64,000 bases of DNA. Origin: Misgurnus anguillicaudatus. Lineage: Eukaryota > Chordata > Actinopteri > Cypriniformes > Cobitidae. Below, piece after piece: positions 35,801 through 52,640 of the stretch. Numbering within the stretch: position 1 is the stretch's first letter; every line of letters begins with the position of its first letter. The stretch lies in the NCBI RefSeq assembly GCF_027580225.2, contig NC_073355.2, positions 22,751,501 to 22,815,500 of the forward strand, written 5' to 3'. The translations under genes and the position numbers were made by a program. The notes beneath the pieces were generated by a model. It saw nothing but the letters and a program-made list of their open reading frames with translations. It did no database searches and was not told the DNA's origin.

Positions 35801-38535
35801 CCTGCCTCCATTCGTGCCATCATTGGAATGCTGACTGTTGCTGGGCAAAGTGTTCCACTCCCCATTTGAGACCTTAGTGCCAGTGTTTGAAGAGGATGAA
35901 GAAGAAGATGAAGAGGAGGAGGAGGCACTTCCCCAAGGTCGAGGGATCCCAGCTGGGCCCACACCATTGCCAGCACCCCAAGAAATATTTTGTGAGGTAG
36001 TGGACGCGGAGTCCCATCCTCCTCCACGACCACCCATCCCACTATTATTATTTTTTAAAGAAGCAGCACTCACAGAGGAACCATTGGTTCCAGACTGCAT
36101 TAGAGTTGCATTCACAGTGTCGCCAACAGCTTGGCCTTTAGGGATAGGACATTTGTCTCCAGAGTAATTAGTGCTGGGCGGAATGCCCCATGCTGTACCA
36201 TAAGACCCGCTGTTTATTCCCTCACTGTTGCCATGTTGAGAAATGGAAGTGCCATTAGAGACTGAAGAAATAGGGAGCTGAGAAGAGCCCCCTGTGTTCA
36301 TAGGCCAGGCTCGGTGCCCTGGGGGCTGTTCATTCATCTGTATTGAACCTGTAGAGTTTGGTAAACTAGAGGTCATCATGTTAGTAGTGTTATTTGGTCC
36401 ATTAAATTCAGTGTTAAGGTTTTGAGGCTGCCCGCTTTGAACCTTGCTTGTACCATTGATTTCAGCTTCAGACATATTTTCCTGCAGGCATCCCCAAGAC
36501 ATCTTAGAGTTGATACTCTGCATGCAGGGTGTTTGACCTATGGTGCTTAGTTGAGTGTTGGTGCCACCATTCCCAACAGGACCATGGGGGTTGGGCCCGG
36601 TGTTCTGAAGAATGGGCCAGGCACCATGGTTGGCATTTGGGATCAAAGTGCTTGGATTTATACCTCCATTGGTTGAGGAACCTTGGGTGCCCCATGCATT
36701 AATTTTGCCATGGCTGCTTTCTACCAGCTTGCTGCTGGGGCCCTCCGTGGAGCCTTGACATGTGCTTAGCATCGAGCCATTGGATACACCCCAAGGCCCC
36801 TTAACACTCCCATTAGCCACATTATTGCTGCCATTTGCAACCATGAAATGAGAACCTTGACTACATCCTTGCCTATTGCCATTGTTGTCACCGCCAGTGT
36901 TTCCAGAAGCCATTATACTTAGATTTTTTTCAGACCCAGAGCTGGAGGCAGAATCAGCATCCATACATTCTGAGGCTAACTCTGGGTCGCTACCAGTGAT
37001 GGAGGACCAGGGTCCTTTATCTACAATGACTTTTCCCCAGTTACTGTTTGAGTCACTGCAAGGTGAACTAGAGCTCCACGGTGAATTTTCATACTGAGAT
37101 TCCAGTCCAGCATGTTCTAAACCTGTGGGTGTAAATAAAAGGTTAAATGAGCTCCAAATAAACAACTATTTATTCTAATAAAGTATATTTATGTTTAAAA
37201 GAATTAAACAGAACAAAGGCACACACAACAGATCAAAGCAAAAATCACAACAGCGTTAAACTAAAATGTGTCTCAGTTTTGTGTTAAAGCTCTGCATTTC
37301 CTGAACTTGAAAAGATAAACTGAGAAGTAACAAGGACATTTGCATTTTAGCCATACCCTTAATAAAATGTCTAACAAACTCTGTGTAAACGCAATACAAT
37401 AACATTACACACCAAACATCTCTCTTGGACAAGGCACAGGAAACTGTAACTTTGGTAGAGTGATCACAATTTGTAATCATTTGTCTATTTAAGCATTACT
37501 TGACAATGGCCAAATGCCCATAGACCCAATCTCCGTCCTGCTGAGAGGTGTCTCACTTAAGACAGACTGAAACAGTAGTAGAGCTGCCACCATTTTGTTG
37601 CAGCAGCAGGATCGTGCTGCCTGCCAGTAGATAGAGGAGGGAAAGACAGACAGACGCTCTGCAGCACGATGGAAATTGAAGTCTCTGCAAGTTCCTTCAT
37701 TTTGCAGTGTGGCACCACCAGACTACAATACTAATGCAACTGCTTTATTTCTTGAAATAAAAGTGTTTTCTGCTAGCCTAATCTTGTCTGCAAGATGGCT
37801 GCCAAGCTTCCCGGAGTGCGATTTTCTTGCCAAGTCTGAGAATTTTCTCTCTGGCGGTGTTAACCAACAGATATAAAACAACAAAACATGAAGTCTCACT
37901 GTTGGTCACAGTTTGCATAACATGATCAAATGATTCTGATTAAGATTCTGTTGAATATCACTGACCTGAGTAAAAGAAAATTACACTATTAAAGAACGTT
38001 ATTCTATCTAGTATCTTTATTTCTCATTCACCAACTTTAAGAAATAACTTATCAATAAAAAGATAATAAAAAGGTAGGTTTTTATGGCAAACAGCACAGT
38101 CTTCTGGGTTACACTGTATAAACTTCAGGAAAGTTAGTTCTGTGAAACTGTTGGCAGCACAACTGGTTTGTCCTTACATAACGCATGAAAAACTGAGGTT
38201 TGGCAAGTAAAAAAGGGCAAGTCAGGCTACCTATGCCAAGATCTTATGACATTTTTCTTACAAAGAGTGCCAAAGCAAATGGCTATATTTAGAGTGGTTC
38301 AAAATTACACTTTGAGTGCTTGGACAACACCGTCTGCAGACTACTGTATTCATGCATTTACTATACATTTTGAGGCAATCTACATACTTAATAAATGCTG
38401 AATAGGTTTTCCAGAATTTACATACTTGACAAACGTTACACAAAACAGTAAACCATAGCACAATGTGAGAAATAAGCAAAATGTGTCACCTGTTTGGTTA
38501 GGGGAGTGGCTGACAGAATCCCGAATGGGAGCCAT
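23856..38535 (-). CDS. tnrc6a: TNRC6A / GW182 scaffold protein, 20 coding exons
   Basis: Minus-strand coding exons run 38535-38490, 37122-34540, 33713-33501, 33344-33193, 33085-33008, 32892-32841, 32759-32632, 31904-31746, 31643-31515, 29997-29869, 29773-29699, 29605-29401, 27459-27322, 27211-27048, 26949-26811, 26712-26605, 26394-26185, 26082-26015, 25911-25772 and 24231-23856 (TAG). They sum to 5292 nt, 1763 residues, in frame. The 2.6 kb exon is GW/WG-rich (nearly 40 tryptophans; Argonaute binding) with a serine run near residue 413. Then come a UBA-like segment (~1015-1050), a Gln-rich stretch (~1181-1250), a PAM2 motif for PABPC (NWPPEFRPGEPWKG, ~1414), an RRM-like domain (~1581-1660) and a C terminus ending GGGESM. 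The protein recruits deadenylases to microRNA targets in P-bodies. I start at the first in-frame Met after the upstream stops. The junction 27048/26949 lacks GT-AG. Confidence 0.93.
24603..24968 (-). mobile_element. TTAA-flanked MITE, family A, copy 3 (inverted)
   Basis: 366 bp between TTAA at 24599-24602 and 24969-24972. It is homologous to the 4011 and 13031 copies in reverse orientation. Confidence 0.85.
25187..25494. mobile_element. Truncated copy of the TATAGTCGTGCG family (Harbinger-like?)
   Basis: Starts TTTATAGTCGTGCG and follows the copies at 48743 and 56898 through a CAGCGCGTCAG and CTGTGATTGGTCCACC block, then stops before the right end those copies have. Confidence 0.6.
27546..28357. 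mobile_element. TTAA-flanked fold-back element with AGGAAAACACC ends
   Basis: 812 bp in a tnrc6a intron. Left and right halves are inverted copies (AGGAAAACACCACC ends, a GTGTTAGCATTTAGC block, a TATGGTGGCACA centre). TTAA lies at 27542-27545 and 28358-28361. A related copy starts at 63128. A smaller TTAA element is nested at the centre. Confidence 0.8.
27893..28043. mobile_element. 151-bp TTAA-flanked MITE nested in the fold-back element
   Basis: AGGTATTGCGGAGGATTTTC at the left pairs with GAAAATCCTCCGCTATACCT at the right; TTAA at 27889-27892 and 28044-28047. Confidence 0.85.
29167..29400 (-). CDS. tnrc6a: Optional tnrc6a segment: alternative 5' splice site adds 78 codons
   Basis: The exon 29605-29401 has a donor (TTTAG then gtgggt) that joins the conserved GLNSN exon. 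The frame stays open through that donor for 234 bases to a second donor (AAGAG then gtgaat) at 29167, in the same phase 1. The extra peptide is Ser/Asn/Pro/His-rich, for example LHVGQNDSMLHQAAKPN and SGYQPAGISQSHSLLAPP, like other TNRC6 linker. A real alternative donor, or the main one in fish, fits best; chance readthrough of 78 codons is less likely. Coordinates are only the added part. Confidence 0.5.
30141..31075 (+). repeat. Tandem duplication of a 460-bp CpG-bearing repeat in a tnrc6a intron
   Basis: Two head-to-tail units (30141-30599 and 30600-31075) each start TTTAAACAAATAATTACG, run through CCGTGGGTTCACA and end GAACGCAGCATT. The units differ at many positions, so the duplication is not recent. 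CpG content far exceeds that of the flanks. Confidence 0.8.
31126..31441. mobile_element. MITE with AGGGATAGTTCACCC ends, 316 bp
   Basis: The ends are inverted copies (AGGGATAGTTCACCCAAAAA). The left flank is TTAA and the right flank TTAT, presumably a mutated TTAA. This end sequence is one of the commonest in cyprinid genomes as I recall. It is related to 24468-25537. Confidence 0.75.
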
Positions 38536-39014
38536 GCCTATAAAACAAATGGTGACATTATGAGATGCTAACAGAATTGAAAGTTAAGATAAATGGATAC
38601 ATGGTAGCTACAAGTCTGTCTTTTAAATTTCTAAGGCCACAAACTAAAACCATGCAGAATGCATTAAATACATTGAATCAAAATCAGGGTCAAACCCAAT
38701 ACAACTAATAAAAACATGAAATAAACCAAACTCTTAGAATTAAAAACAGTACAGAAAATAAACAGAGCAGCTAACAAGCCAATTTGTTGGTCTAGTTGAT
38801 TTACAAGTTTATGACTATAATATTTTTTACACTCAAGCCTAGAATTTATCCATTTAAATAAAATTTAATCTTAATTTAATTTTGCAGCAACTTCCTGCCC
38901 TGCATTTTACCACCTGAATCCTTTAGAGATTGCTAATATAGGGATTAATATCAAAGGTCTCACTGCATATGTAGGAAATGTTTTTGACAAGGTTATTCAG
39001 CACTGTTCTGGTAC

Positions 39015-52441: not shown

Positions 52442-52640
52442 CTCTGGTAGTTTAAAGTGCAGTAGAGATGAAATGAAAGCAAATAATAAGGCTACAGAAA
52501 TTCAACACATTTGCAGAATCGAAGAGGGGAAACATTTGTCCTGCTCAAACGCCATTTTCTTCTCTCGCATTCATGCATTCATCCCTGTAACAGCAGGAAG
52601 AGCTCAGACGCCTCTCGCGTAGCACTTCCTCCAACCCAAC
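52442..52640 (-). other. tnrc6a: tnrc6a first exon and promoter edge
   Basis: A strong minus-strand donor (CTACCAGAG then gtgagt) ends at 52442. The exon contains AAAATGGCG (YY1-like, 52558-52550) and lies in the only GC-richer patch of the area. The start of transcription near 52640 is estimated. Confidence 0.5.
52502..52555 (-). CDS. Short upstream ORF in tnrc6a exon 1
   Basis: A 17-codon ORF (MAFEQDKCFPSSILQMC, TGA) whose ATG is inside the YY1-like ATGGCG. If the exons above are 5' UTR, such uORFs would damp translation of the MAPIRDS start. Translation is not shown by the sequence. Confidence 0.3.
   Translation of the reverse strand: MAFEQDKCFPSSILQMC

Follow-up and report, generated by a model that had tools for sequence, protein, structure and literature searches.

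How can a gene keep the exons of its ancestral N terminus when those exons can no longer be read? This question is raised by tnrc6a of the loach Misgurnus anguillicaudatus, which lies on the minus strand of a 64,000-nucleotide stretch of contig NC_073355.2 (positions 22,751,501 to 22,815,500; the whole stretch is called the window, and positions are counted from its first letter). TNRC6A is a central scaffold protein in silencing by microRNAs, and mammals produce it in long and short forms. In the loach, the ancestral N-terminal exons are in place yet unreadable, and the rest of the gene is open. We consider it probable that the start moved to the methionine of a short internal exon (the MAPIRDS exon) early in teleosts, yielding a short GW182, and that the upstream exons eroded later and were left as relics in the 5' leader. 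The features on which the argument turns are as follows.

52442–52600 (start undefined), minus strand: putative first exon, assumed from sequence only, with a gtgagt donor
50779–50827, minus strand: relic of the RELEAKATK exon, 49 nt, with TGA at 50796, recognized by profile score and the splice signals ttttag and gtcagt
39015–39332, minus strand: relic of the main N-terminal exon (VPE...RYP...KQLLKRGQ), 318 nt, with TAG at 39285 and 39156, recognized by tblastn homology
38490–38537, minus strand: MAPIRDS exon, 48 nt, with the inferred start ATG at 38535, a start shared with 33 database proteins
34540–37122, minus strand: main GW-rich coding exon, open throughout (100% self-match, no stops)

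Broken upstream exons and an open remainder

The 318-nt exon at 39332–39015 is bounded by the acceptor TTTTCAG and the donor gtacca and begins and ends in phase 1. Read in frame with the 38537–38490 exon and then the main exon, it gives VPEHIKSSFSQPQSAN-stop-NSSISTVTCAISNAKRAQASGQPQTLPRYPLCEDPPHLCQHK-stop-KQLLKCGQSLTVLAATLGTQVQ... (in a longer rendering, VPEHIKSSFSQPQSAN-stop-NSS...KRAQASGQPQTLPRYPLCEDPPHLCQHK-stop-KQLLKCGQSLTVLAATLGTQVQ...). The stops are TAG at 39285–39283 and TAG at 39156–39154; a sequence-only reading of the window had placed the exon and both stops at these positions, and they agreed base for base. The resemblance to a TNRC6A N terminus, which that reading had noted, was borne out by tblastn against the window, as eight of nine N termini matched the exon with E values from 3.7e-23 to 1.3e-6: Acipenser (3.7e-23), Amia (8.6e-21), a marsupial (1.9e-18), bichir (1.8e-15), coelacanth (3.6e-14), lungfish (2.1e-13), skate (5.1e-13), and the database protein P0011 (1.3e-6). 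The N terminus of the cod model P0094, the other one of the nine tested, gave no match to the exon. The tblastn alignment with Amia showed 61% identity over 75 residues with no gap, and 4 of the 9 Arg codons counted by eye are now Cys or His, a pattern as CpG decay would give. Judged by homology, the 318-nt exon is the vertebrate TNRC6A N-terminal exon.

The exon at 50827–50779 reads RELDAIVTKDI and then TGA (50796–50794), exactly as had been noted before. On a profile of 10 vertebrate sequences it scored 23.9 bits, and the top score among 60 shuffles of the 16.7 kb was 11.8; chance resemblance was accordingly rejected, and by its profile match the 49-nt exon is a real relic. Its length is also informative. 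The Chinchilla proteins P0028 and P0029 omit the corresponding exon with the frame kept, so the length of the ancestral exon 2 would have been divisible by three, and the 49-nt loach exon is frame-broken and cannot be spliced to the 318-nt exon with the frame kept. Other vertebrates have a lysine-rich exon between these two; a profile search of the 16.7 kb did not find it, the best score, −31.0, falling short of the ten highest from 40 shuffles (−15.6 to −27.5). In the putative first exon, no ATG in the relic frame stays open to exon 2. The CAG earlier pointed out at the place of the mammalian start codon is literally there if the first exon ends at 52442, which is an assumption, and it is only weakly diagnostic because several different sequences precede RELEAK among vertebrate proteins. 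The N terminus of loach tnrc6a is broken in several ways (no start codon seen, the TGA at 50796, the TAGs at 39285 and 39156, the lysine-rich exon not found, and the frame break), and no readable N-terminal module of the long TNRC6A (TNGW1) type was found.

Beyond the last stop, the first ATG in frame is the one at 38535, within the exon at 38537–38490, where the sequence-only reading had put it. Its context, GGCATGG, has G at −3 and at +4 and is strong. This ATG and its exon are in frame with the open main exon at 37122–34540, in which GW/WG repeats are plain, as a short GW182 would require. The assembled loach protein was 83% identical to Myxocyprinus P0001 over its whole length. A pseudogene was rejected on the basis of this identity and the open main exon. 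The earlier proposal that the N-terminal coding region is unreadable and that a shorter GW182 is to be expected from MAPIRDS was upheld by the stops, the exon not found, and the open main exon.

Start position across vertebrates

We compared the start position in a homologue set of 103 proteins, 54 of which carry a PIRD motif near the N terminus; the other 49 rows (fragments, isoforms without the MAPIRDS exon, TNRC6B, or TNRC6C) were left uncounted. M-A-P-I-R-D-S was read in 37 of the 54, comprising 35 named rows, all from teleosts, plus P0011 and P0070, and 33 of these 37 begin exactly at that methionine. The 17 others, all from non-teleosts (12 named species: sturgeon, paddlefish, two bichirs, lungfish, six frogs, and a bird), read P-P-I-R-D at least 115 residues inside the protein, and the residue before this motif is M in 16 and E in 1. 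This comparison shows, at the level of database proteins, that the MAPIRDS exon is internal in non-teleosts and the annotated start in teleosts. The short form is, by these predicted starts, not peculiar to the loach or to cyprinids. The contrast between an M-A-P-I-R-D-S start common to teleosts and an internal P-P-I-R-D in non-teleosts appears to be new here. Since the same methionine is found in all 37 proteins with the MAPIRDS exon, the start shift is probably old and the stops probably a later consequence.

The long form was sought with the intact sturgeon N terminus (residues 1–165; E ≤ 1e-18), which gave 85 matches among 1362 candidates. None of these matches was a teleost TNRC6A; the TNRC6A rows were named for non-teleosts, and the seven teleost rows (P0138, P0148, P0154–P0157, and P0159) are TNRC6C by name or domains. 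Because each 90% cluster is named by a single member and the rows mirror annotation pipelines, such a search could overlook teleosts whose long form is intact or has diverged further. A protein search with the relic read through gave no match, a result of little weight, since its 983-residue query confined it to 126 candidates of about 541–1720 residues and thereby excluded P0011.

The following sequence of events would account for these results. In early teleosts, the internal methionine in the P-P-I-R-D exon would have become a translation initiator, and the codon after it would have changed from Pro to Ala, which placed an initiation-favouring G at +4. From then on, mainly or only the short GW182, similar to the short isoform of humans, would have been produced. 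Dispensable for this product, the upstream exons would have stayed downstream of the promoter and ahead of the new start, decaying earlier in some lineages than in others; the loach stops would be comparatively recent, and the relics would persist as a long 5' leader.

A shift of translation to a methionine further downstream, by which exons that once were coding become 5' untranslated region (UTR), is a general phenomenon. Loach tnrc6a resembles it in using an internal methionine as the start while the upstream coding sequence decays, but differs in two respects: several of the relic exons can still be recognized, and the shift seems to be much older than the stops. No usable precedent for a start-codon shift with relic exons was found in the literature searched, and the titles and abstract starts searched on TNRC6A/GW182 held no report of N-terminal loss of TNRC6A in teleosts.

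Age of the stops and fate of the relic exons

The relic was 65% identical to Amia (44/68 residues) and 59% to Acipenser (40/68), and the latter two were 85% identical to each other (58/68). The relic gave branch lengths of 0.40 for the loach (bootstrap 0.25–0.59) and 0.03 for Amia; the corresponding values for the main region were 0.27 (0.24–0.32) and 0.12. In a neutral simulation, the observed identity corresponded to approximately 0.13–0.16 substitutions per site, at which 1.3–1.4 stops were expected in 68 codons versus the 2 observed. Simulated identity fell to 0.35 at 0.5 substitutions per site and to 0.23 at 0.8, compared with the observed 0.65, and a single neutral decay since the origin of teleosts was rejected on these values. 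With rates of 2–4e-9 per site per year, assumed rather than measured, these 68 codons place the decay roughly 30–80 million years ago, a range that the bootstrap widens to about 20–120. Teleosts are older than this, so the stops would have come long after the start shift; likewise, 65% identity to Amia is too high for neutral drift since the teleost origin, and the stops therefore look younger than the shift. On this comparison, the loach stops appear comparatively recent, and we infer that between the start shift and the stops something kept the relic exon conserved.

Several points weigh against this history. The loach branch values for the relic and the main exon overlap, and only the ratio to Amia differs. 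For an old neutral 5' UTR, the relic is too well preserved (44/68 to Amia) and has too few indels (75 residues ungapped); this excess preservation would point to a late loss or to another constraint on the exon. Furthermore, start positions in databases mirror annotation pipelines, and the MAPIRDS exon is absent from six or more named teleost TNRC6A rows (P0003, P0016, P0041, P0072, P0082, and P0090), which are incomplete or have another start; none of them shows the old N terminus.

Whether the relic exons are still part of the transcript bears on the most serious competing explanation, namely that they are intronic fossils and that the first exon is spliced straight to MAPIRDS, the protein still being the short GW182. 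This is possible though rather unlikely. The 318-nt exon can be removed without a change of frame, and Callithrix isoforms omit the corresponding exon (...KIK-DINHST...). Against this, acceptor and donor signals are present at both relic exons, and two database protein entries link relic-like sequence to MAPIRDS. P0011 (1733 residues, from a 5908-base contig that is presumably a transcript) reads QLLKEGRGCAAPAAILGTQVQL...HLSG-MAPIRDS, is open from its first methionine, and shares GTQVQL with the loach relic. It pairs with the catfish Trichomycterus with a support of 1.0 in a tree of which only this pairing was used, its deeper order being unlike accepted fish relationships. Cod P0094, a partial, unnamed product, reads RDLDLEAVATKETEES...VPDHIKS...MAPIRDS. 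The two entries suggest that relic exons outlived the start shift, joined to MAPIRDS, and the relics are likely still spliced as a long 5' leader in the loach. As predicted from the database proteins, the N-terminal extensions of P0094 and P0011 before MAPIRDS are open and degenerate.

A present function of the relic, constrained long after the start shift as a CUG-initiated extension or a regulatory leader, would explain the 65% identity to Amia and the 75 ungapped residues despite two stops, but we regard it as improbable. If true, the extension would be a feature that annotation pipelines overlook, and upstream open reading frames (ORFs) in a regulatory leader would tune the dose of Tnrc6a. 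The candidate start for such an extension is the following.

39103–39105, minus strand: speculative CTG start in the context GCCACC-CTG-G, in frame with MAPIRDS

That the relic is partly translated from this CTG at 39105, adding approximately 31 residues that run into MAPIRDS, is a little less probable still. The frame is open for 47 codons between the last TAG and MAPIRDS, P0011 shares LGTQVQL and the frame, and the 10-mer GCCACC-CTG-G occurs once in the window with 0.05 copies expected. However, the motif was chosen post hoc, and 5 of 100 shuffles also held one copy; the residues are ancestral (A-N-L-G in Amia), so that the context is partly inherited, and out-of-frame ATGs lie upstream. Upstream ORFs were scanned on a leader joined from four window exons, the first exon being assumed. 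This leader holds upstream ATGs, and the one at 50819, in a weak context, would open a 62-codon out-of-frame ORF that extends to 39187 across the junction of exon 2 and the relic if the two are spliced together.

Two further explanations would rescue the long form itself. Stop-codon readthrough, which the sequence-only reading had offered as an alternative, would agree with a frame kept over 75 residues of the 318-nt exon, ungapped to Amia, but three stops would have to be read, and the long protein would still have no in-frame start codon upstream and no lysine-rich exon, and its frame would be broken between exon 2 and the 318-nt exon; we give it scarcely any credence. It is also very improbable, if marginally less so, that the stops are assembly errors or private variants or that a better copy lies elsewhere in the genome. 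The data come from one assembly (1.12 Gb), and the genome search scored only the best candidates. Nevertheless, the three stops, the further substitutions, the missing exon, and the teleost start position all agree with one another. The paralogue with the full form suggested earlier did not emerge from this search: among the best candidates, the main exon found tnrc6a itself and two distant loci scoring best with tnrc6b and tnrc6c, with no second tnrc6a copy, and the relic exon as query found only itself.

Human forms, paralogues, and the rest of the gene

The short GW182 of human TNRC6A resembles the predicted loach product in being a working short form without the N-terminal module. By the numbering used in a passage of PMC5570423, human isoforms 1 and 2 differ by 253 residues, and TNGW1 is described in part of PMC10726160 as having five additional exons; the same part reports that mainly the short form was found with Ago2 in activated CD8 T cells. 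Humans thus keep both the long TNGW1 and the short GW182, whereas the loach long form is unreadable, and in the teleost models sampled the start lies at MAPIRDS or downstream of it. Because humans make a comparable form, the short product is not exotic; the long alternative is what teleosts would have lost. Teleosts resemble a natural experiment: the long TNRC6A appears to be gone, while TNRC6B and TNRC6C keep the N-terminal module. The role of the TNRC6A N terminus becomes testable in this way, and what is learned from teleost models may not apply to the long form. In addition, the relic exons would record with unusual clarity how a start codon moved downstream.

The remainder of the gene was followed from the main exon to its end.

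23856–33765, minus strand: downstream tnrc6a exons to the stop codon, with approximate limits, the stop-to-stop frames being joined approximately

The best matches of the assembled protein were of the TNRC6A type (3197 bits for the top match versus 418 bits for the first named TNRC6B row), and the tree agreed with TNRC6A orthology. The TNRC6-PABC binding domain PF16608 was detected in it with an E value of 6.8e-108; Pfam searches on three separate pieces of the gene gave no match. The Argonaute hook PF10427 was not reported at 0.001 for the approximate loach assembly and is listed for P0001, P0002, and P0006. Many TNRC6A rows from spiny-rayed fishes list PF16608 and not PF10427, through either divergence of the hook or search sensitivity. 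The mammalian nuclear localisation signal SGKKRRRER was not seen by eye in the frames read at 32987–33363; a passage of PMC5570423 states that it appears absent in fish.

The paralogues TNRC6B and TNRC6C have the same N-terminal module (R-Y-x-P-R-E-V-P-P-R-F-R ... LLKRGQ) as TNRC6A. In the loach they differ from tnrc6a in that the module is open, both in TNRC6C P0154 and in the exon of the tnrc6b-like locus (L002, 664–861). The locus 0.8 Mb from the window matched Misgurnus anguillicaudatus TNRC6C with 97–100% identity in four pieces. One loach chromosome (C19) holds tnrc6a of the window at 22.79 Mb, the tnrc6c-like locus (L003) at 23.58 Mb, and the tnrc6b-like locus (L002) at 52.64 Mb.

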